The notes beneath the pieces are model-generated. The model searched no databases. It worked only from the letters and a program-made list of their open reading frames with translations, and was not told where the DNA came from. 50,779 nucleotides of DNA, taken from positions 1 to 50,779 of the forward strand of contig CANKBS010000027.1 in NCBI GenBank assembly GCA_947480015.1, given 5' to 3'. Source of the stretch: Sphingobacteriaceae bacterium (GTDB taxonomy: Bacteria > Bacteroidota > Bacteroidia > B-17B0 > Aurantibacillaceae). The translations under genes were made by a program, and so were the position numbers. The first letter of the stretch is position 1. Each line of letters begins with the position of its first letter. Of the stretch, positions 10,632 through 24,014 are shown one piece after another.

Positions 10632-11534
10632 ATGTCCATTCTCGTTAACCATATCACCAAAACATACGGCAGTCAAAAAGCATTAAACAATGTTTCTTTT
10701 GAAGTTGGCGATAATCAAATCGTGGGTTTTTTAGGTCCCAATGGTGCAGGAAAAAGCACCATGATGAAAATCTTAACGTGCTATATTCCACCAACAGAGG
10801 GTGATGCCAAGGTTTGTGGTTTTGATATTTTAACACAAAGTCTGGAAGTCAGAAAACTCATCGGTTATTTACCCGAACATAATCCGCTTTACCTGGATAT
10901 GTATGTAAAAGAATTTTTAGAATTTGTAGGCGACCTTCACAAAATAAAACAAGTAAAAAACAGGGTCAATGAAATGATTGACATGACCGGTTTACAGCTC
11001 GAACAAAATAAAAAAATTGGCGCATTAAGTAAAGGTTACCGTCAGCGTGTAGGTTTGGCACAAGCCATGATTCACGACCCTAAAGTGTTAATTATGGACG
11101 AGCCTACGACAGGTTTGGATCCCAATCAGCTGGAAGAAATCAGGACTTTAATTAAATCGTTGGGTACTCAAAAAACAGTGATGTTAAGTACACATATTAT
11201 GCAGGAGGTTGAAGCCATTTGTGACCGAGTAATCATCATTAACAAAGGCGAAATTGTTGCTAATGATAGTACCCGCACTTTACAGCAAAACAGCACCAAA
11301 CAAATTATTACCGTTGAATTCGATGGCATAGTGGATGCAGCGCTATTAAAAACAATTCCTGAAATTGAGCAGGTGAAATTGGTTCAAAATAATATTTGGC
11401 AATTATCCACTACTTCTAAAAACGATGTTCGTAAAGAGATCTTTAATTTTGCTGTAGCCCACTCCATTGGTGTTCTCACCTTAAACAAGGAAGAACAAAA
11501 AATGGAAGATGTCTTTAAGGAGCTTACTAAATAG
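10632..11534 (+). CDS. gldA: GldA-like ABC transporter ATP-binding subunit
   Basis: A protein of 300 residues: an ABC ATPase of the type in the GldA-GldF-GldG complex, needed for gliding in Flavobacterium johnsoniae. Walker A is GPNGAGKST (residues 35-43), the signature is LSKGYRQR (132-139), Walker B is VLIMDEP (152-158), then the D-loop GLDPNQ and the H-loop in STHIMQEVE. The C-terminal 80 residues after the ATPase core match the GldA length of about 300. No membrane subunit is next to it; a GC-rich repeat follows. A generic ABC-2 exporter ATPase cannot be excluded, but the N-terminal HITKTYGSQKALNNVSFEV is very like GldA. Confidence 0.85.
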   Translation: MSILVNHITKTYGSQKALNNVSFEVGDNQIVGFLGPNGAGKSTMMKILTCYIPPTEGDAKVCGFDILTQSLEVRKLIGYLPEHNPLYLDMYVKEFLEFVGDLHKIKQVKNRVNEMIDMTGLQLEQNKKIGALSKGYRQRVGLAQAMIHDPKVLIMDEPTTGLDPNQLEEIRTLIKSLGTQKTVMLSTHIMQEVEAICDRVIIINKGEIVANDSTRTLQQNSTKQIITVEFDGIVDAALLKTIPEIEQVKLVQNNIWQLSTTSKNDVRKEIFNFAVAHSIGVLTLNKEEQKMEDVFKELTK

Positions 11535-11819: not shown

Positions 11820-12959
11820 TCATGGCTTATACTTCAAGTCATAAGGCAAGAATTCACCGGATTTCAGAGCCGAATCAAAATAAAATTTATCAAGTTTTTT
11901 AAGGATGGCTTCAATGCCTTGTTTTTCCTCAAGACTAAGCTTTTCGGCATGTATAAATTCAACTTTTTCTACTGCTTTGGCCGCATTGATCTTTAGTCTG
12001 ACTTCGAATGCCTTTGAGAGATGTTTTGATTCCAGAATTCCTTTAAGCTCTTTTACCAATGCTTTTTTACCGCCTTTATAGTGACAGGTAGCAATGGTGT
12101 ATACGTTTACTTGCATAGGTGAATTAGACAATGAGCCGTTTGTATTCATTGGACTGCCACCTGAATAACTGTAATTGAGACCAGGCGAAGAACTCGGTTG
12201 AGTAATGACTTGCTCAGGTACCTGACTAGTAGCCAAGGAAGGTGAAACCTCTGCCGTTTTTAATGCCTTACTTTTTTTAGAGGTGCTTTCAACCACTTCT
12301 GATTCTTCTTGCTTGGCTACTCTTTTAACGTCCGACTTATTGGTGCTCTGTTTCGTGTCTTCCAAAACCACCTCATCGGTAGCTATGGTTTCAACTTCCT
12401 GCAATTGTAAAGGAGCCTTTTCAACAGAGCTTGCCGCATCATCCGCTTCCTTATCTGCAGCCCCTGAGCCGGAAGACCGATAAACCGCATCTTCACTACC
12501 GCTAAGCAATCGGGGTTCAGTAGCCTGATGGTTTTGTTCGTGCACGACAGTTTTCACCGAAGTCTTTGCTTGCTCCGTAACCACGGTTTCGCTCGATATA
12601 GCAGGTTCTGGAGGCACTTGGGTTTTTGATTTCGGTTCTGCAAGAGCTAATTTGCGCTGTTCTTTTTCATTGTTTTGAAGGATAAATAAAACACTTAAAC
12701 CAATTACCAGTAATAGTCCGGCAGCCGCCATCCAATAGAATGGTGAGGACTTGCGCGATGATTTTGAAAACAATTCACGCTCAATTTTTGCATCCAATTG
12801 CGATTTTAAGGCAAAGGCTTCTTCTTCTGAGGCCAATTGATCAAAACCTTCTAAGGCCTCTTTTTCGAAGTCGTCCATAGTCTCCATGCCCTGACCTTTG
12901 GCCTTACCTAGCAAATCCTTCAGCTTATCCGGCTCTTTATGTTCGTCCTGTTTGTTCAT
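11820..12959 (-). CDS. Membrane protein encoded with a sigma factor (putative anti-sigma factor)
   Basis: A protein of 379 residues. A charged cytoplasmic region of about 70 residues, rich in Glu and Lys, precedes one transmembrane helix (about residues 73-95). A long low-complexity linker of Ser, Val, Glu and Thr follows (about 100-280), then a compact C-terminal domain (from ATCHYKGGKKALVKELKGI onward, about 95 residues). The start overlaps the sigma-factor gene by 23 bases, so the two are co-translated. This layout (sigma factor followed by a single-pass protein with a cytosolic N-terminus) is that of an anti-sigma factor, though no canonical ZAS or FecR motif is visible. The role is inferred from position and topology. 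The C-terminal domain is distantly reminiscent of TonB-like folds. Confidence 0.75.
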   Translation of the reverse strand: MNKQDEHKEPDKLKDLLGKAKGQGMETMDDFEKEALEGFDQLASEEEAFALKSQLDAKIERELFSKSSRKSSPFYWMAAAGLLLVIGLSVLFILQNNEKEQRKLALAEPKSKTQVPPEPAISSETVVTEQAKTSVKTVVHEQNHQATEPRLLSGSEDAVYRSSGSGAADKEADDAASSVEKAPLQLQEVETIATDEVVLEDTKQSTNKSDVKRVAKQEESEVVESTSKKSKALKTAEVSPSLATSQVPEQVITQPSSSPGLNYSYSGGSPMNTNGSLSNSPMQVNVYTIATCHYKGGKKALVKELKGILESKHLSKAFEVRLKINAAKAVEKVEFIHAEKLSLEEKQGIEAILKKLDKFYFDSALKSGEFLPYDLKYKP

Positions 12960-13566
12960 TTTCTAAGGCTTCCATTTTTAACTTGAGATTGCGTTTACCA
13001 TTTTGAATATAACTTTTTACGTCGTTTGAACTGAAGCCAGTTATTGCTGTTATTTCGGCATACGACTTGTTTTCTAAATAAAACAAGCTAATGCATACTT
13101 TTTGACTCTCATTTAGCAATAAAATTGCCTGCTCAAGTAACACCATCTGTCTTTCCTTTTCCTTGAGATGTTCAGGATCCGACAAATCCATAAACAAATG
13201 GCTGTTTTCTCTAAGTTCAAGCTCTTTTTTGAGCTTACTCTGGCGTTTACGCAATGCCATTAAACAAAAGTTTTTACTGTATACATACAGCCAACTTTTA
13301 AAATACTCTATTTTATACTTTTTGAGATCACTCAATAATTTGCTGAAAATCTGAATCACCGCATCCTCTGCTTCGCCCCTGTTTTTAAGGTATTTGAGAC
13401 ATAAACCCAGCACCAAATGACCGTGTCTTTTATAGAGTATGCCTACAAAAGTAGTGTCCCCAAGTTGCAAATAATTGTTAATGAGCTCCTGGTCGGAATA
13501 ATTATTGTATTTGTCGTTATAAACCAATTCAATAACGAAAATAGTTCTATTTAATAAAATAACCAT
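12937..13566 (-). CDS. ECF-type RNA polymerase sigma factor
   Basis: A reading frame of 209 residues. Region 2 is recognisable at about residues 45-110 (FVGILYKRHGHLVLGLCLKYL, then GEAEDAVIQIFSKLL), and region 4 at about 145-200 (LLNESQKVCISLFYLENKSYAEIT followed by the helix-turn-helix TGFSSNDVKSYIQNGKRNLK). It directs RNA polymerase to a small regulon and is probably held by the overlapping downstream membrane protein. The true start may lie after the first ATG, because residues 1-20 are unlike the family. The gene is divergent from the YfiR gene, with only 7 bases between the annotated ends. Target promoters are unknown. Confidence 0.9.
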   Translation of the reverse strand: MVILLNRTIFVIELVYNDKYNNYSDQELINNYLQLGDTTFVGILYKRHGHLVLGLCLKYLKNRGEAEDAVIQIFSKLLSDLKKYKIEYFKSWLYVYSKNFCLMALRKRQSKLKKELELRENSHLFMDLSDPEHLKEKERQMVLLEQAILLLNESQKVCISLFYLENKSYAEITAITGFSSNDVKSYIQNGKRNLKLKMEALENEQTGRT

Positions 13567-13572
13567 TATTAA

Positions 13573-13602
13573 TTTGGCATTTCAAATCAAATATTATCTT
13601 TG
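13573..13602 (+). promoter_or_regulatory. Complete Bacteroidota promoter (TTTG-N18-TATCTTTG)
   Basis: A -33 TTTG (13573-13576) lies 18 bases from a perfect TANNTTTG box (13595-13602). This is the best promoter match in the window. It faces the YfiR gene and overlaps the first codons of its longest reading frame, so it argues that translation starts further downstream. Confidence 0.65.
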
Positions 13603-14152
13603 TAAGATTCATTTTAAACTGCACAAGGTCTATAAATATTTAACCATTCTTTTGGTCCTGATTTCTTTCGGATTTCAGCAACCAAATTCCTATGATGTGA
13701 ACTCCAAATTCAAGGCGGTTTTCCTATATAGCTTTACCCGTTATTTCGACTGGCCGGATGAAAAAAAGACCGATGCTTTTGTGATTTATGTGGTGGGTAA
13801 GAACGACGCACTGGTCGCAGAATTAAAAAAGAATCTTTCAGGTAAAAAAAAGGTGGGAAATCAGGAAATAGAAATAAAAAACTCGCCTGCTTTTGATCCT
13901 TCCATTACCTCTAACATTATTTATTTTGCCCCCGATGCTTTAAAACCGGTTACCGATGCAGCATCAAAAAATAAAAAGAAAGGTGTGCTTATAGTGGCTG
14001 AAGCACCCGGCGCCTGCAAGTCAGGAGCAAGCATCAACTTTATCTTTCTTGAAAATAAATTAAAATTTGAATACAGTAAAAACGCCGCAGTGAAAGCGGG
14101 TTTGAAAACGAATGAGGACTTTAAAGCTTTGGCAGAAATAAATATTGATTAA
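13574..14152 (+). CDS. YfiR-family periplasmic protein (DUF4154)
   Basis: The reading frame has 192 residues from a TTG. The family pattern is clear: KFKAVFLYSFTRYFDWP, a central FVIYVVGKND, and the C-terminal GASINFIFLENKLKFEYS with KNAAVKAGLKTNEDFKAL. In Pseudomonas, YfiR is a periplasmic repressor of the membrane diguanylate cyclase YfiN. Here a signal peptide with core YLTILLVLISFGFQQ (about residues 22-36) exports it. The start is uncertain: the TTG lies inside a promoter, and between that promoter and the signal core there is no ATG, GTG or TTG, only ATT (13607) and CTG (13619). The gene leads a four-gene run with a membrane phosphatase that could be its partner. Confidence 0.85.
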   Translation: MAFQIKYYLCKIHFKLHKVYKYLTILLVLISFGFQQPNSYDVNSKFKAVFLYSFTRYFDWPDEKKTDAFVIYVVGKNDALVAELKKNLSGKKKVGNQEIEIKNSPAFDPSITSNIIYFAPDALKPVTDAASKNKKKGVLIVAEAPGACKSGASINFIFLENKLKFEYSKNAAVKAGLKTNEDFKALAEINID

Positions 14153-14168
14153 CTTTAATCTAGATAAA

Positions 14169-15092
14169 ATGTGCAGCTTGCGCCAACATATTAAATACTT
14201 GCTTCTAAGCCTACCCATGCTTATAAGTGTGAGTGTACTTGCACAAGAGGATAAGCTAGTTAGAGCGCAACAGTTGTTGCGTAACAAAGAAACAGAAGCC
14301 GCCATTAAAGCAATCGATTCAGTAATCGTTCATCCTCAAACCCGCCTTGATTTTATAAGCTGGACTACCCGCGCCTATATTTATTTTGATTTCTACAAAC
14401 GCTCCGGTGAAAAAGCGCTACTTAACTCACGACTGCGCGATACGATTGTATCTTCTCTTCTTGCTTCGAATAAACTTAAACCCGATTCACATTATTTGGT
14501 TCAAAATAAGAACCTGCTATCTAATTTATCTGTTAACTATTTTAATTTGTCTAAAAAACTGCTCGAAGACTCAGTTAACGAGCAGCGTAGTTTAATTGCT
14601 TACAATCGATTTAAAGAACTTAACCGTGTTGTTAATCCTAACGTTGATCTTAGTTCATACGATATAGCCTATAATGTCGCATTAGGTAGCATCTTCTCTG
14701 ACCGTTTCATTAAAGATAATAGCGATATCAAGTCACAAGAAATAGCTAAAGTAGCCCTATTAAAAGTATTGGAAGTTCAGCCTGAAAACCCGACTGCTAA
14801 TATTAATATGGGCTTAATGTTTTACAACCATGCGGTGTTCTTAAGTAAATCGCTCGATTATGGAGCCGATTTCTCACAAATTGATATTGTTCAAGAAAAC
14901 ATGGTGAAGCTGGCCAAACAAAGTGAACAGTTTATTTTAAAAGTTTACAGTAACGATAATAAGAACACCAAAGCTATTCAAGCTTTATTCTATATTTACC
15001 GCATGCTGAATGAAATTCCTAAGTCGGATGATTTTAAGAAAAAGGGTGAATTACTGGGTTTAAAGTTCTCAGATCAAGAAAACGAAAAATAA
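14169..15092 (+). CDS. Secreted TPR-like protein
   Basis: A protein of 307 residues from the ATG at 14169, chosen because it gives a clean signal peptide (CSLRQHIKYLLLSLPMLIS followed by VSVLAQ); a TTG 24 bases upstream is less likely. The mature part is alpha-helical with TPR-like pairs (VRAQQLLRNKETEAAIKAID near the start, ALLKVLEVQPENPTANINMG near residue 205). It starts 16 bases after the YfiR gene and ends 6 bases before the phosphatase gene, so the three form one transcription unit. Likely a periplasmic protein-binding scaffold; no catalytic motif is seen. Confidence 0.78.
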   Translation: MCSLRQHIKYLLLSLPMLISVSVLAQEDKLVRAQQLLRNKETEAAIKAIDSVIVHPQTRLDFISWTTRAYIYFDFYKRSGEKALLNSRLRDTIVSSLLASNKLKPDSHYLVQNKNLLSNLSVNYFNLSKKLLEDSVNEQRSLIAYNRFKELNRVVNPNVDLSSYDIAYNVALGSIFSDRFIKDNSDIKSQEIAKVALLKVLEVQPENPTANINMGLMFYNHAVFLSKSLDYGADFSQIDIVQENMVKLAKQSEQFILKVYSNDNKNTKAIQALFYIYRMLNEIPKSDDFKKKGELLGLKFSDQENEK

Positions 15093-15098
15093 CAAAAA

Positions 15099-16880
15099 AT
15101 GAAAATGAAATTTACCATAGGCAGAAGGATAGGATTGGGGTTTGCCATTTTTATTTTGTTAACCGTTATTGCATTTATACTAACAGTTGTAATTCTTGAC
15201 GAAAGTAAAAATCGCACCGAAACTGTTGTTGGACAGGTAACGCCAAGTGTTGCGGAATTGAAAGAATTAAACCTTTTATTACAACGCTCGCATACCGACA
15301 TTTCAAAATGGTATTACAACAAAAGTTTTAATGACATTGATTTCAGAGATGAACTCAAAAAAATTATTTCTACAGATTATCCTAGGAAAAAAGCTATTTT
15401 GAAAGAGTTCTCTGGACTTTGGACGGACGAAGAGAAAAAACAGTTGGATGTAATTTTTACACGTGTTGAGGATCTTTTTGATTTGTATCAAACCCAAATC
15501 ATTAATGCACTCAATAGCCCAGAGGCCTATGATGATCCAAATATTTACATGTTGGCCCTTATACCTTATGAGGAATCAGACGGTAGTATTAAAATTATTT
15601 ACAAAAACCTGAATTCCTTAATTACATTAAAACAAAAGTTCGCCGCAAAAACGACCAATGAAATGTTTGTGTCAATTAATTTTCTTCAAACCTTCGTGCA
15701 ACTTTTAGGTATTACCTTAGTCATCGGTGGAATTCTAATTGCCTTCTTTACTACACGCAGCATTACCATCCCAATTCAGGTCCTAAAAAAAATGTTATTG
15801 TCAATGGGGCTTGGTATATTACCGAAAGAGCGGGTGAGTGCCACTAAGGATGAAATAGGTGAAATGGGTAATGCGCTTAACGACCTCATTCGGTCGATGC
15901 AGCATACCACCGATTTCGCTAAAGAAACCGGGGCAGGTAATTTTGAAGCTTCTTATACACCTTTAAGTAAAGACGATTCATTAGGTCACGCGTTATTAAA
16001 GATGAGGGAGGATTTGGCCGAGAATGAACGTGTTCTCGAGCAAAAAGTTATCGAACGTACCGAAGAAGTTGTTCGTCAGAAATCGGAGATTGAAAATAAA
16101 AATGAAGAACTCGAAATCTTATACAAACAGGTTACCGATAGTATTCATTATGCAAAACGAATTCAAGATGCTATTTTACCTACTAGCAATATTGTAAAAC
16201 AAATGCTTCCCGATTCGTTTATATTATTTAAACCCAAGGACATTGTTAGTGGCGATTTTTACTGGATAGAGAAAAAAGAAAATTTGGTTTACTTTGCAGC
16301 TGTCGATTGCACCGGACACGGTGTGCCGGGCGCCTTCATGAGTTTGGTAGGCCATAATATTTTAAAAGACATTATTAATAATACGTCGGCCACTCAGCCT
16401 TCACACATCCTCGATCGTTTAAGAGAAGGAGTTGTAAATACCTTGCGGGTGGATGATTCGGGTAAACAAGCTAAAGACGGCATGGATATGACGCTTTGCG
16501 CCATTAATTACGACGCAATGGAATTACAGTACGCTGCCGCCTTTAATCCACTCTATATTATCCGTAAAGGTGAATTGATTATGCACCCTGCCAATAAATT
16601 CCCAATCGGTTCGTTTATTGGAGAAAAAACAAATTTCGACAATCATGTGATTCAACTCGAAAAAGGAGATCAAATATTTATTTTTAGTGATGGATATGCC
16701 GATCAGTTTGGTGGTCCAAATGGAAAAAAATTCATGGTTGGTAACTTCAGGAAATTATTGACTCAAATAGCTGCACTTGATTCTGTATCCCAAAAAGAAA
16801 AACTGGATGAGACCCTGCTTAAGTGGCAAGGCGTACAGGAGCAGGTGGATGACGTTCTCGTAATAGGAGTAAAGGTTTAA
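15099..16880 (+). CDS. Membrane sensor with HAMP domain and SpoIIE-type PP2C phosphatase
   Basis: A protein of 593 residues. Transmembrane helix 1 (about 11-33), a helical periplasmic sensor domain (about 34-195), transmembrane helix 2 (about 196-218), HAMP (about 219-272), a coiled coil (about 300-350) and a SpoIIE/PP2C domain (about 370-593). The metal-binding acidic motifs are DIVSGDFYW (Asp381, Asp386) and AVDCTGHGVPGAFMS (Asp403); the late motif IFIFSDGYADQ is also present. It should dephosphorylate a serine/threonine phosphoprotein, classically an anti-anti-sigma factor, in response to a periplasmic signal. No STAS protein or kinase is encoded nearby. A second ATG lies two codons downstream. 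The coupling with YfiR is an inference from position. Confidence 0.92.
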   Translation: MKMKFTIGRRIGLGFAIFILLTVIAFILTVVILDESKNRTETVVGQVTPSVAELKELNLLLQRSHTDISKWYYNKSFNDIDFRDELKKIISTDYPRKKAILKEFSGLWTDEEKKQLDVIFTRVEDLFDLYQTQIINALNSPEAYDDPNIYMLALIPYEESDGSIKIIYKNLNSLITLKQKFAAKTTNEMFVSINFLQTFVQLLGITLVIGGILIAFFTTRSITIPIQVLKKMLLSMGLGILPKERVSATKDEIGEMGNALNDLIRSMQHTTDFAKETGAGNFEASYTPLSKDDSLGHALLKMREDLAENERVLEQKVIERTEEVVRQKSEIENKNEELEILYKQVTDSIHYAKRIQDAILPTSNIVKQMLPDSFILFKPKDIVSGDFYWIEKKENLVYFAAVDCTGHGVPGAFMSLVGHNILKDIINNTSATQPSHILDRLREGVVNTLRVDDSGKQAKDGMDMTLCAINYDAMELQYAAAFNPLYIIRKGELIMHPANKFPIGSFIGEKTNFDNHVIQLEKGDQIFIFSDGYADQFGGPNGKKFMVGNFRKLLTQIAALDSVSQKEKLDETLLKWQGVQEQVDDVLVIGVKV

Positions 16881-16892
16881 TGACCAAAAATA

Positions 16893-18425
16893 ATGAAAGT
16901 ACTTCCTGCAATAATTTTTTCGTGCGGTAGTCTGTTTTTTTGTGCCCATGCTCAAATGCAACCAAGAAGTGTAAAAATAACCACAACCGCTATTGGTATT
17001 TCTGCCATTAGTATTAATACCATTGTGGCTAAAACCTTTAATTTCAACTTTCCTGTTTTTAATTGCAAAAAAGATTCTTTAACAAAACAACTTTTTGTTT
17101 CGGCCCGCCAACGTGGCGACGCAGCAGGAAATTTATATTTGAGTCGTGGTTATTTTATGGGAATAAGTTGTACCGGTGACACCGTTAACTGGTTAAACGA
17201 ATCGAGTTTATTTAATGTATTGGTTTCGGGTACTAACCTTCTTGTATCAAACGATGAAAAAACGGTACGATATAATAAATTGCATGGTTACGATGAGATT
17301 CGTTATGACCATAAAATTATTTATACGCCGCCAAAATTCAATAAAGGATTAATGTATAGCAGCACCGCTAATGATGTACTTCATGGCGTAAGTCTTGCCA
17401 CAGGAATCAGCTCATGGTCTTGCAGCATACCACGTAATGAAGATTGGGTGGACATGCAGTATTTGAACGATTCGGTATTACTTGTGGCAGCAAATGGACT
17501 TCATGCCATCAATATCCGTTCAGGGTTAAAATGGACTTTCCCATTATCTACTTCTGCCAAAACAAGCCGTTCATTAATTTATTCTTCAGCAAAATATAAA
17601 ACCATTCAAAAAATCAGTACTGTATTAAAAACTTCCAGCGAAGAAAATCAAGTCACTCAACTAGCATCCAATATTCTGAAAGATGATAAATTGATTTATT
17701 TTTCTTCTAAAGAAAAACTCATTGCTGTAAGCCACGAAGGGCAGCTGGCATGGGAACTTGACCTGAAGAATTATCCGGTTTCGAAAATGTATATTTCTAA
17801 AAGCGACTCTTCCCTCACTTTGGTTAATTTTGGACTGGCTACGCACAGTAATAATTTCGTTACTTGGGGCAAACCGTTTATTTTAAGTATTGATCCACAA
17901 AGTGGGCGCATCATGAGTCAATTCGATTTGAGCGATATTGATAATCTGGCCGATTTTGTTAAAACGAATAATTCCCTTGTCTTTGCTGCTAAAAACTCTA
18001 TTCTTGAAGCCAAACTCGGCAGCAACAGTTTGAAAACCGTTATAGCCATGAATGGCCATAAATACGGTTCTTTTTCCGAGTTTATTAATGGAAACGACTA
18101 TTACATCCTAAAAGAAGGTTATTTTGTACCGCTTAATTTTATTAATGATAACCTTGTTTATTTTAAAGCCGATAACAACAAAATTTACGGCTTGGATTCA
18201 ACCAATTTGGTTTACGAATACCATTTTAATGAGTTGTATAAACTCGATAGAAAATTTGAAAACAAAACTGTTTTGATAAATGATGAAAAAACACTCATAA
18301 CCAATAACACCTTCGAATTACTTTTCACTTTAAATACGACAGCCGAAAGTATAATTCTAAACGACCGGATCTATTTTATAGAAGATTACAAAATTCACAT
18401 GGTTTTATTTAAAGACCTGAAATAG
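16893..18425 (+). CDS. Secreted beta-propeller-like protein
   Basis: A protein of 510 residues. A signal peptide (MKVLPAIIFSCGSLFFCAHA) is followed by repeated blade-like segments such as KGLMYSSTANDVLHGVSLATG, DDKLIYFSSKEKLIAVSHEGQ and NKIYGLDSTNLVYEYHF, which resemble PQQ- or WD-type beta-propeller blades. No catalytic residues are evident. It starts 12 bases after the phosphatase stop, so it is probably the fourth gene of the YfiR run and may provide a ligand-binding surface. The gene on the other side is convergent. Propeller fold is likely; function unknown. Confidence 0.65.
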   Translation: MKVLPAIIFSCGSLFFCAHAQMQPRSVKITTTAIGISAISINTIVAKTFNFNFPVFNCKKDSLTKQLFVSARQRGDAAGNLYLSRGYFMGISCTGDTVNWLNESSLFNVLVSGTNLLVSNDEKTVRYNKLHGYDEIRYDHKIIYTPPKFNKGLMYSSTANDVLHGVSLATGISSWSCSIPRNEDWVDMQYLNDSVLLVAANGLHAINIRSGLKWTFPLSTSAKTSRSLIYSSAKYKTIQKISTVLKTSSEENQVTQLASNILKDDKLIYFSSKEKLIAVSHEGQLAWELDLKNYPVSKMYISKSDSSLTLVNFGLATHSNNFVTWGKPFILSIDPQSGRIMSQFDLSDIDNLADFVKTNNSLVFAAKNSILEAKLGSNSLKTVIAMNGHKYGSFSEFINGNDYYILKEGYFVPLNFINDNLVYFKADNNKIYGLDSTNLVYEYHFNELYKLDRKFENKTVLINDEKTLITNNTFELLFTLNTTAESIILNDRIYFIEDYKIHMVLFKDLK

Positions 18426-21066: not shown

Positions 21067-21074
21067 TACTTTTG
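21067..21074 (+). promoter_or_regulatory. Bacteroidota -7 promoter element (TACTTTTG)
   Basis: TACTTTTG matches TANNTTTG immediately upstream of the 980-codon reading frame. With this box the transcript would begin near 21080, which makes the third possible start (ATG at 21087) the most likely. Confidence 0.45.
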
Positions 21075-21086
21075 TTTATGTTAATT

Positions 21087-24014
21087 ATGAGGACTCTCAA
21101 AAAACTGATTTTCACGGCCATTATTTCACTTTTTTTGCATCAACGTGCATTTGCTCAACCGCCTATAACGGTTGGAACATTTACAGCTTGTCCAAATCAA
21201 ACAGTTACCGGTTGTGCTACTTGGAACAATGTGGGAAGCGCTACTTATACTATAGTGCAACCTACAGGAAGTACTCCCACCTTCACAAACATGGGTTCGA
21301 ACAATTGTTTTGCATTAAGCAATGCAGGCCCTGGCCCTTCAGTTGCTAACTTTACTATTTACGGTTCGGGTATTTATGCCAACGCACCTATCACTGCATC
21401 TGCAATTATAGTAGTTAGCATTCAAAGCCCTCCTGTTCTTACTATCACTAATCCGGGATATTTTTGTTTTGGCAGTAATGCAACATTTACTGCTGATATA
21501 GGTGGAGCTAATTATCTTGTTACTGGCCCATATCCCAATGTGAATTCACCTTCAAATATCATCAATTTCGGTCCTTTGGGCCTAGGCCATTCAGGGAATT
21601 ATACCGTAACCTCAGTTATTAGTGGCTGTACAGTTACCGGCGTTACCTCGGTAAATATTTCACCCAATAATCAAATATCAGTGAATAGTACCAGTAATAT
21701 TTGTCAAAGTACTTCAGCAATAGTTACTTTAAGTGCTAGCCTTCCAAGCGGTGGCAGTTATCAATGGAGCGACCCCTATGGTACGCCATTAACACCAGGA
21801 AATATTGTGAATGTTGGCGGGTTTCCTTCTGGCATAACGCCAACTAACAGTGGTGTTTACACGGCAACAGCTTGTTTAAATTATAATGGTTTGTGTTGCC
21901 CTCGTACCGCAAGCACTCAAATTAATGTGGTTGCTACCAATCCTGTTCTAACTGCAGCTTCTCCGGCAGCACTTTTATGTCAGGGTAATAGCTTAAATTT
22001 ATCAGCGTCCGCTGGGGGTGCCAATACTTGGTCGTGGGTTGGGCCAGGTTCTTTTGTGTCCAGTGTTCAAAACCCTGTCATTAATCCAGCAACGCCTGCA
22101 GCCACTGGTATTTACTCAGTGACAGCGTTTTTTGTTGGCTCTTTTATCACTTGCTCGGTAAGTTCTCAAATTAATGTTCAGGTTGTTCCTGTAAACCTTC
22201 CAATTATTACCATGCCTAACAGTGTTTGCCAAAGTAATAATATAGGTCTTAACTTTTCAGTTTTAGCGAGTGGCGCCAATCAATTTATATGGACCGGTCC
22301 AGGCTCATTCAGTAATACCGTGCAAGGTGCACAGCAAACTATTAGCGCACCACAACCAAGTAATTCAGGTACTTATTATGTTACGGCTAAATTTGGCGGT
22401 AATTTATGTTCATCCACCTCTTCAGCTCAACTCAATGTGGTTCCGGTTAATACGGTGTCGGTAGTACCTCCGGGTATTATTTGTGAGCCAACCAATGCAA
22501 ATTTACAGGCCAATGCTACAGGAGCAAATTTGTTTACCTGGGTGGGGCCAAATAACTTTTCTTCACCGGGCGCCAATGTTATTGTTTACTATCCAACACC
22601 TGCAGCTAGTGGTGTTTATACCGTTACGGCTTACTTTGTAGATATTAATTTAACCTGTAAAAACACTAACACCCTGTTACTCACGGTTTATCCGGTGATG
22701 CATTTTACACTCATTCCACGACAACAAACCTGCTATAAGGTACCTATTACAATTACCGGTCCATCTGGCGCCACTTCGTATACTTGGACAAGTTCTACCG
22801 GTTTTATCTCGCATTCAAAAGATGTTTTCATTGCGTCAGTAGAGCCTAAAAATAGCGGTACCTATACACTTAATGTGTCATTAGGTCCATGTATCTCCGG
22901 CGCTGAAACAAGTATAGAGGTAATCTCACCTATTCAATTTACGTTAACACCCAAAAGCCGCAGCATTTGTAGAGGCGATACCATTGTGCTTGAAGGTGGC
23001 GTGAGTGGCGGTACTCAGAATTACGCTTACGGTTGGAATCCGGCTGTCTATCTTCCTTCCTCTACAGGCTCTATACAAACGGTGGTGCCATTAGGAAGTA
23101 TTGCATATAATTTAATTGTACACGATATTGCTTGCCCTAATTTTTCCTTAACACATAGTTTTGATATTACGGTAAATCAACCACCAAATCCTGTGGTTCA
23201 ATTAAAAGCCGGTGAAGGGTGTTCCCCACTTGATTTTGTAGTGAATACCAAAACGCAAAAAGAAGCTTTTGTAACTACTTTCGATTTTGGTGGATTAATG
23301 AAATATCAAAAAGTATTTGCGGGTACGGATACTGTGTTTCAACATTTTTTGAATGCTGGAACGTATACCCTAAGTATTTATTCGGTGGGTAAAAATGGGT
23401 GTAGTGGTACATATGTGTACCCATATCCAATAAAAGTACATGAAAAACCAGGGGCTGATTTTTATACCGACCCTGAAAAACCAACTTCTACAGATGATAT
23501 TAGTTTTATTGCCACTACCAAATACCAACCCATTACTTATTATGGTTGGAGTTTCCTAGGCGGTAAAACTCCAGGTGATACGAATGTGTATTCAGCTGCA
23601 CCCGATACCTTTAATTTGCCTGTTGCACACCGCAGTTATGAAAATGCTGGTAAATATCCGGTATTACTCATGACTGAAACCGACTTTGGTTGCAGAGATA
23701 CTGTGGTTAAATACATAGATGTGATTGACGACATGCACCTTTATATACCAAACACCTTTACCCCAAATGATGATGGTGTAAATGATGTGTTTTTCGTAAA
23801 AGGCATGGGAGTTAAAACAGAAGGTTTCAGTATCGAAATTTCTGACCGTTGGGGTAATGTTATTTTTTATACCAAAGACATCAATGAAGTTTGGGACGGT
23901 AGTGTTAAAGGTGTAAAAGCCAAAGACGGGGAGTATATTTACCGGATAAAAGCCATAGGCTTAAATGGAGAAGGCCGTAAAGAGATTTCGGGCTTTGTGA
24001 CCATTTTAAAATAA
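21087..24014 (+). CDS. T9SS type B surface protein with Ig/PKD-like repeats
   Basis: A protein of 975 residues from ATG 21087; a TTG (21072) and an ATG (21078) lie just upstream. Signal peptide MRTLKKLIFTAIISLFLHQ then RAFAQ. The middle consists of about eight Ig/PKD-like repeats of 80-90 residues, with recurrent W(V/T)GP.(S/N)F and SG.Y.VTA motifs. The C-terminal 90 residues carry the gliding-motility-associated (CHU_C) domain, LYIPNTFTPNDDGVNDVFFV through DRWGNVIFYT to a short FVTILK end. That domain is the type B secretion signal of the T9SS in known Bacteroidota. It is followed by a strong terminator, so it is its own unit. Function: probably adhesion or display on the cell surface. Confidence 0.9.
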   Translation: MRTLKKLIFTAIISLFLHQRAFAQPPITVGTFTACPNQTVTGCATWNNVGSATYTIVQPTGSTPTFTNMGSNNCFALSNAGPGPSVANFTIYGSGIYANAPITASAIIVVSIQSPPVLTITNPGYFCFGSNATFTADIGGANYLVTGPYPNVNSPSNIINFGPLGLGHSGNYTVTSVISGCTVTGVTSVNISPNNQISVNSTSNICQSTSAIVTLSASLPSGGSYQWSDPYGTPLTPGNIVNVGGFPSGITPTNSGVYTATACLNYNGLCCPRTASTQINVVATNPVLTAASPAALLCQGNSLNLSASAGGANTWSWVGPGSFVSSVQNPVINPATPAATGIYSVTAFFVGSFITCSVSSQINVQVVPVNLPIITMPNSVCQSNNIGLNFSVLASGANQFIWTGPGSFSNTVQGAQQTISAPQPSNSGTYYVTAKFGGNLCSSTSSAQLNVVPVNTVSVVPPGIICEPTNANLQANATGANLFTWVGPNNFSSPGANVIVYYPTPAASGVYTVTAYFVDINLTCKNTNTLLLTVYPVMHFTLIPRQQTCYKVPITITGPSGATSYTWTSSTGFISHSKDVFIASVEPKNSGTYTLNVSLGPCISGAETSIEVISPIQFTLTPKSRSICRGDTIVLEGGVSGGTQNYAYGWNPAVYLPSSTGSIQTVVPLGSIAYNLIVHDIACPNFSLTHSFDITVNQPPNPVVQLKAGEGCSPLDFVVNTKTQKEAFVTTFDFGGLMKYQKVFAGTDTVFQHFLNAGTYTLSIYSVGKNGCSGTYVYPYPIKVHEKPGADFYTDPEKPTSTDDISFIATTKYQPITYYGWSFLGGKTPGDTNVYSAAPDTFNLPVAHRSYENAGKYPVLLMTETDFGCRDTVVKYIDVIDDMHLYIPNTFTPNDDGVNDVFFVKGMGVKTEGFSIEISDRWGNVIFYTKDINEVWDGSVKGVKAKDGEYIYRIKAIGLNGEGRKEISGFVTILK

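Follow-up and report, generated by a model that had tools for sequence, protein, structure and literature searches.

A conserved yfiR-TPR-HAMP/PP2C triad in Bacteroidia and its possible role in a phospho-switch free of cyclic di-GMP

The stretch of DNA considered here, the window, is the 50,779-nucleotide contig CANKBS010000027.1 of a Sphingobacteriaceae bacterium (assembly GCA_947480015.1), and is contig C27 of a genome, G000, of 3.77 Mb that is 99.99% complete. Within it a gene for a YfiR-family protein is followed by genes for a tetratricopeptide repeat (TPR) protein, a membrane phosphatase with HAMP and PP2C domains and a propeller-like protein, and facing them on the other strand are genes for a sigma factor and its membrane partner. 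The six open reading frames (ORFs) at 11820-18425 agree with the families and order given in a preliminary description of this DNA. Where labels are needed, G numbers denote genomes, L numbers fetched loci and f numbers families within the class Bacteroidia. The features are as follows.

13573-13602, plus strand: operon promoter of Bacteroidota type, TTTG - 18 bases - TATCTTTG, its -7 element conserved in relatives
13607-14152, plus strand: protein of the YfiR/DUF4154 family, presumably periplasmic, with a signal peptide recognized by eye; translation start ATT 13607 or CTG 13619, uncertain
14169-15092, plus strand: TPR-like all-helical protein, presumably periplasmic, its signal peptide recognized by eye; start ATG 14169 (ORF from TTG 14145)
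15099-16880, plus strand: membrane phosphatase with SiaA-type PP2C domain; transmembrane segment, periplasmic four-helix bundle, transmembrane segment, HAMP, coiled coil, PP2C
16893-18425, plus strand: propeller-like exported protein, weak PQQ_2 match; an addition in the same genus only
12937-13566, minus strand: divergent sigma factor of the extracytoplasmic function (ECF) type; start perhaps TTG 13527 instead of ATG 13566
11820-12959, minus strand: putative anti-sigma factor with a single transmembrane segment, overlapping the sigma gene; counterparts in f20 and f6 have an HxxxCxxC zinc-finger motif

Taking ATG 14169 as the TPR start, the four genes of the operon are separated by 16, 6 and 12 bases, in keeping with the earlier account of gaps of 6-16 bases, and the strong shared promoter reported there is also upheld. 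The element (TTTG at 13573-13576, TATCTTTG at 13595-13602) was identified with the Bacteroidota promoter consensus. Its -7 part, TAnnTTTG, is present in 57 of 58 relatives and the full promoter in 25 of them; base shuffles would give 13.5 and 0.4, respectively. A scan for sigma-70 hexamers gave no excess over shuffles. As the listed yfiR ORF begins at TTG 13574, within the promoter, translation should start later, and the in-frame candidates 3′ of the promoter are ATT 13607 and CTG 13619. For the same reason the seven bases that had been said to part the operon from the sigma gene are an artefact of ORF calling. With a later yfiR start and the sigma gene read from TTG 13527 the gap is nearer 80-90 bases, and in the window's family the ORF ends of the divergent pair are a median of 134 bases apart; the seven-base spacing was consequently discarded as a sign of tight coupling.

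The TPR protein, the most specific part of the set, has matches in 80 of the 87 genomes of the window's order (one family, ten genera). In a sample of 396 genomes from across the class, 111 have a listed match at E<1e-38 and are here called strong genomes. Leaving the window aside, gene order was examined in 59 of the 79 genomes of the order with a TPR match, and elsewhere in the class 60 of the 92 strong genomes were covered. Genes for YfiR, the TPR protein and the PP2C protein are intact, in the same order, on the same strand and nearly touching in 57 of the 59 loci read in the window's own family, where the median gaps are 10 and 3 bases, and in 59 of the 60 from 21 other Bacteroidia families, where they are 1 and 21 bases. 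Put in terms of the 111 strong genomes, order was read in 79 (19 from the window's family, including the window, and 60 others) and is intact in 78. One exception, L063, is a locus that ends at the TPR gene; the other in the window's family, L062, is genuine and does not come from a truncated contig; at L226 (G093) YfiR and TPR genes are present and the sole PP2C match is upstream. A separate scan of named genomes, whose records are nearly all metagenome-assembled Bacteroidetes with many contigs identical to those of the G set, found the triad in 74 of 80 loci, with one part missing in the other six. Of the loci fetched from the family, 21 of the 32 in the window's genus have the propeller gene and none of the 27 in other genera does, and on that distribution it was dropped as a core member. 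The conserved unit is thus three genes, yfiR-TPR-HAMP/PP2C, not four or six: of the six-family module initially proposed, the order of these three is what relatives preserve, and the sigma pair and the propeller are accessory.

Some departures around the triad were seen in particular lineages. In genus g9 an ORF of 237 amino acids lies beside it (L079:4297-5010 in G060, L081:3785-4498 in G066) and has a weak match, about 100 bits, to the phosphatase profile; homologues in L156 and L161 match only the HAMP and coil part of that profile. Could this be a sensor without a catalytic domain? In f16, too, there is a further gene after that of the phosphatase (L242:9884-11935, L248:9933-11975); its product is long and exported, to the eye perhaps a propeller, and begins unlike the window's propeller. 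L161 itself (CAJCJB010000130.1) is titled Candidatus Saccharibacteria and has the Bacteroidia triad with genes positioned as in contig C130 of G066, a genome of the window's own family, and so is probably mislabelled.

The window's YfiR matches DUF4154 (PF13689) at 83.6 bits, above the curated cut-off of 24.9, and scores below the cut-offs of the Pseudomonas-type equivalogs NF053586 (17.1 bits, cut-off 85) and NF053591 (82.3 bits, cut-off 125). Its profile found no convincing match by sequence in the PDB, the only matches under 0.01 being to Cps2A (0.0066). The TPR protein has a sub-threshold TPR_17 match in Pfam; its AlphaFold2 model is all-helical with a mean confidence score (pLDDT) of 91.4, its profile matches consensus TPR proteins, and Foldseek returned weak matches, mainly of TPR type. 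Both proteins are predicted from their signal peptides to be exported to the periplasm. The propeller has weak PQQ_2/BamB-like matches under cut-off.

In the phosphatase, Pfam recognizes SpoIIE (67.8 bits) and, below threshold, 4HB_MCP_1 (24.2, cut-off 27) and HAMP (18.8, cut-off 25), with the four-helix bundle at about residues 37-194 and the PP2C domain at about 338-593. Its best NCBIfam match is SiaA, at 200.9 bits and with only residues 264-592 aligned, so well under the equivalog cut-off of 700. A profile of 37 orthologues matches the PP2C domain of SiaA (PDB 6K4E) with E 1.6e-52, the next structure being at 1.8e-5. The AlphaFold2 model has a pLDDT of 79.6, mostly 83-96 for sensor residues 51-190 and poor around 270-340, and its PP2C part superposes on 6K4E with a VIA Z of 31.6 (root-mean-square deviation, rmsd, 2.1 over 244 residues), the next structure reaching Z 22.8. 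The active-site residues of SiaA are D457, D474, G477, D600, G601 and D653 (PMC7647112, in the portion available); residues aligned with all six are present in the window's protein and invariant in the 37 sequences. By sequence and predicted fold, then, the catalytic domain is of SiaA type, nearer to SiaA than to RsbU, RssB or SpoIIE. The modelled sensor superposes on the ligand-binding four-helix bundle of MCP2201 (Z 16.1, rmsd 2.2 over 144 residues) and on LytSN of the XylFII-LytSN complex (Z 15.9, rmsd 1.7 over 122), values to be read knowing that a superposition Z under about 13 may be unspecific for helical bundles.

That YfiR is tied to this phosphatase is well supported, as judged from gene sequences, by the conserved order of the triad together with in-frame fusions of YfiR to SpoIIE domains. 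The second YfiR gene of G000 (L088:7153-8934) is such a fusion, with a coiled coil and a single hydrophobic segment, recognized by eye, as the connection, and so both YfiR genes of that genome are linked to SpoIIE-type phosphatases. Fusions in one frame are present in at least six of 217 genomes, from five families (G000, G020, G251, G115, G245 and G281); relatives are near full length, and reading four of the six frames gave YfiR, transmembrane segment, coil and PP2C. Of all the evidence here, these natural fusions speak most strongly for an action of YfiR on the phosphatase. Searches of open-licence PubMed Central found nothing joining YfiR with SpoIIE in Bacteroidetes, or YfiR with Bacteroidota, PP2C or tetratricopeptide, which is no proof of absence, and in the text accessible there DUF4154 matched only structural work on Pseudomonas YfiB-YfiR.

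The SiaA likeness points to SiaC and SiaB as the likely route onward. In G000 a single SiaC gene stands next to one for SiaB (contig C6, 60126-60944), outside the triad operon and near another SpoIIE gene, the pair being one gene beyond that for a 1098-residue propeller-Y_Y_Y-SpoIIE protein; two further SiaB-like genes are also present. In that neighborhood (L271:3780-8957, on contig C6) the order is propeller-Y_Y_Y-SpoIIE, a short protein exported by eye, SiaB, SiaC and then a gene for an aldolase of DeoC/LacD type. The SiaC aligns with that of Pseudomonas aeruginosa (E 9.7e-20) and retains Y-x-N-T-S around T68. Residues of this region are reported to contact SiaD in P. aeruginosa, with phosphorylation of T68 blocking the binding (PMC8457831, in the portion available). 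Of nine SiaC genes compared, five have N-T-S-S, namely those of G000 and of L267-L270.

Across the 396 genomes, and with no correction for phylogeny here or in the RsbW comparison below, SiaC is found in all 111 strong genomes and in 82 of the 285 others (29%). Among the genomes listed within single families the figures are 9 of 9 strong against 4 of 8 others in f5, and 1 of 1 against 6 of 13 in f19; SiaB is present in 192 of the 396. In G000 itself no match to GGDEF (PF00990) was obtained at E<=0.001, a control search giving matches in 8 of 14 genomes, and as a consequence SiaD was not found there. Nine of the ten SpoIIE proteins of G000 have SiaA as their best NCBIfam match, at 142-220 bits and so under the cut-off of 700, and the tenth is RssB-like. 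There are then nine SiaA-like phosphatases with different sensors and a single SiaC, and many phosphatase inputs may converge on one SiaC hub. Some other genomes of the class reach ten SiaC matches, the full number scored.

Several known systems share features with the triad. As in YfiBNR of P. aeruginosa and others, the gene for a YfiR-family protein, presumed to be periplasmic here, lies next to one for a HAMP-containing signaling protein of the inner membrane. The YfiR-YfiN core has been described as modular, with histidine kinase, HPT, GGDEF-EAL and MCP outputs (PMC3375315), and a PP2C phosphatase such as that of the window is not among the outputs named in the available part of that paper. 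The window's sensor is a four-helix bundle rather than PAS, and the operon has a TPR protein instead of a YfiB-type lipoprotein, no Pal-like domain being found among the six proteins of the locus in a search confined to them. Nor is the diguanylate cyclase output of YfiBNR encountered, given the lack of a GGDEF match in G000. With SiaABCD of P. aeruginosa the likeness is in a HAMP-PP2C phosphatase with a SiaA-type catalytic domain and in SiaB and SiaC homologues that keep the phospho-threonine stretch. The differences are that G000 has no match to SiaD or any other GGDEF protein, that YfiR and TPR partners are added, that nine SiaA-like phosphatases face one SiaC, and that the window's phosphatase falls far short of the SiaA equivalog score. 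With RsbU/RsbV/RsbW there is a common PP2C fold and phospho-switch logic, and the SiaC fold resembles an anti-sigma-factor antagonist (PMC7647112, in the portion available), yet in sequence and structure the phosphatase is nearer SiaA than RsbU or RssB. XylFII-LytS (PDB 5XSJ) offers a parallel in which a periplasmic protein sits on a helical periplasmic sensor domain, the one on which the predicted window sensor superposes. That resemblance is tempered by the breadth with which helical bundles match. A further difference from the window's system is that LytS is a histidine kinase and that its partner XylFII binds sugar.

The best reading of these features is a merger, free of cyclic di-GMP (c-di-GMP), of Yfi-type input with Sia-type phospho-switching. 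Periplasmic YfiR, with the TPR protein as its modulator or scaffold, would act on the four-helix bundle of the HAMP-PP2C protein, and the state of the bundle would set the activity of the cytoplasmic phosphatase domain. The phosphatase would most likely dephosphorylate a SiaC-type protein against the action of a SiaB-type kinase whose gene is elsewhere, and as G000 has no GGDEF match the unphosphorylated SiaC would act on an effector other than a diguanylate cyclase. An envelope-to-cytoplasm switch of this kind, in which YfiR and the TPR protein gate a SiaA-type phosphatase acting on SiaC, is given about an even chance (roughly 0.5). A broader version, tentative and held with distinctly less confidence, is that this is an ancient Bacteroidia pathway in which many phosphatases feed few SiaC hubs and the face of SiaC that binds SiaD elsewhere has come to switch a different effector, with no c-di-GMP involved.

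Several points weigh against the proposed switch. SiaB and SiaC are outside the triad operon, and of the 60 class loci no more than 3 have SiaC close to the triad. The instances beside a triad are L207, L242 and L257 among the class loci and L157 and L163 among the named genomes (L163 matching the L207 contig), with SiaB there too in L242 and L257, and of the nine SiaC genes compared, the four close to a triad have Ser in place of T68; physical linkage of SiaB and SiaC to the triad was rejected on these grounds, the loci being too few and those SiaC genes having Ser. With nine of the ten SpoIIE proteins of G000 SiaA-like, the specificity of any one phosphatase for the one SiaC is in doubt. The window's YfiR is distant from that of Pseudomonas, as its NF053586 score indicates, and in L062 (G001, 78% complete) a relative of the TPR protein from the window's own family has other neighbors, without YfiR or PP2C. 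In the fusions that were read, YfiR is attached without a recognized four-helix bundle or HAMP, so coupling there differs from that in the triad.

Whether YfiR touches the phosphatase at all bears on a distinctly unlikely alternative, that the triad genes are merely co-expressed envelope genes and YfiR has the TPR protein or an outer-membrane protein as its partner. A mirror-tree analysis of 72 genomes, comparing YfiR distances with those of the TPR protein, sensor, catalytic domain and HAMP, gave no specific signal for YfiR and the sensor; the partial correlation of 0.22 for this pair is not above the 0.33 for YfiR and the catalytic domain, and so coevolution does not indicate contact between YfiR and the sensor. 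Opposed to this alternative are the near-invariance of the operon and the YfiR-PP2C fusions already described. Further downstream, the phosphatase could feed a classical switch of RsbV/RsbW type, in which a STAS antagonist and a HATPase_c_2 kinase free a sigma factor. STAS proteins are the classical substrates of SpoIIE phosphatases, there are three HATPase_c_2 matches in G000, and RsbW-type HATPase_c_2 proteins (E<=1e-15) are in all 111 strong genomes, so that co-occurrence leaves room for a target of this type. They are also in about 159 of the 285 other genomes (about 56%), and so are less specific to triad genomes than SiaC, and the PP2C domain resembles SiaA far more than it does RsbU, RssB or SpoIIE; a switch of this type is considered unlikely.

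The neighboring sigma factor, suggested in the preliminary description as the output of the phosphatase, fares less well. The sigma protein has Sigma70_r2 and r4_2 matches over cut-off; its partner in the window has no Pfam match and no recognizable anti-sigma domain. Among 16 homologues of the partner, zf-HC2 is found in five and TonB_C in four, and HxxxCxxC is in all five rows from f20 and f6 and in none of 11 from the window's family. Since these counterparts carry the zinc-finger motif, the window's protein is probably a diverged anti-sigma factor. The idea that the phosphatase controls the divergent sigma factor through this membrane partner draws on the anti-sigma-type zinc finger of its relatives and on the divergent linkage of the sigma gene in 42 of 57 triad loci of the window's family, 9 of 13 in f20 (where the spacing ranges from zero to 2 kb and is about 2 kb at two loci) and the 1 in f6. 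Against it, the sigma gene was seen at none of 46 loci of 19 other families. In the window's family, a search of 22 genomes for an orthologue at E<=1e-15 gave no match in 10 (G039, G020, G017, G007, G041, G006, G083, G043, G042 and G063, two of them under 90% complete), and in G046, G047 and G060 the match, of 50-54% identity, is on another contig; all 13 keep the triad. In G002 there is only a distant match, of 39%. Regulation by PP2C enzymes is also unusual for ECF/anti-sigma pairs. Control of this sigma factor by the phosphatase is thus very unlikely, and on its distribution the adjacent gene was rejected as core output: the pair is a lineage-specific neighbor. Of the wider proposal that YfiR-type inhibition has been rewired to partner-switching control of transcription, the tie of YfiR to a membrane PP2C phosphatase holds, and the adjacent sigma factor is not its general output. 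In the f20-like loci L207 (1844-2251) and L157 (213-602) a SiaC gene, with Ser at the T68 position, is on the strand of the divergent sigma/anti-sigma pair and a few genes beyond it.

YfiR and SiaABC have so far been studied as controllers of c-di-GMP and biofilms. If the merger of Yfi-type input and Sia-type switching is right, the phospho-switch would be separable from, and perhaps older than, the c-di-GMP output, and the triad would give a concrete entry point to inward envelope signaling in Bacteroidia. It would also raise the question of what SiaC binds when SiaD is absent.

Elsewhere in the window, just past the putative anti-sigma gene, is a gene for GldA, a gliding-associated ABC transporter ATPase (10632-11534; 442.3 bits, cut-off 402.6), and at 21072-24014 there is one for a type B protein of the type IX secretion system (T9SS).

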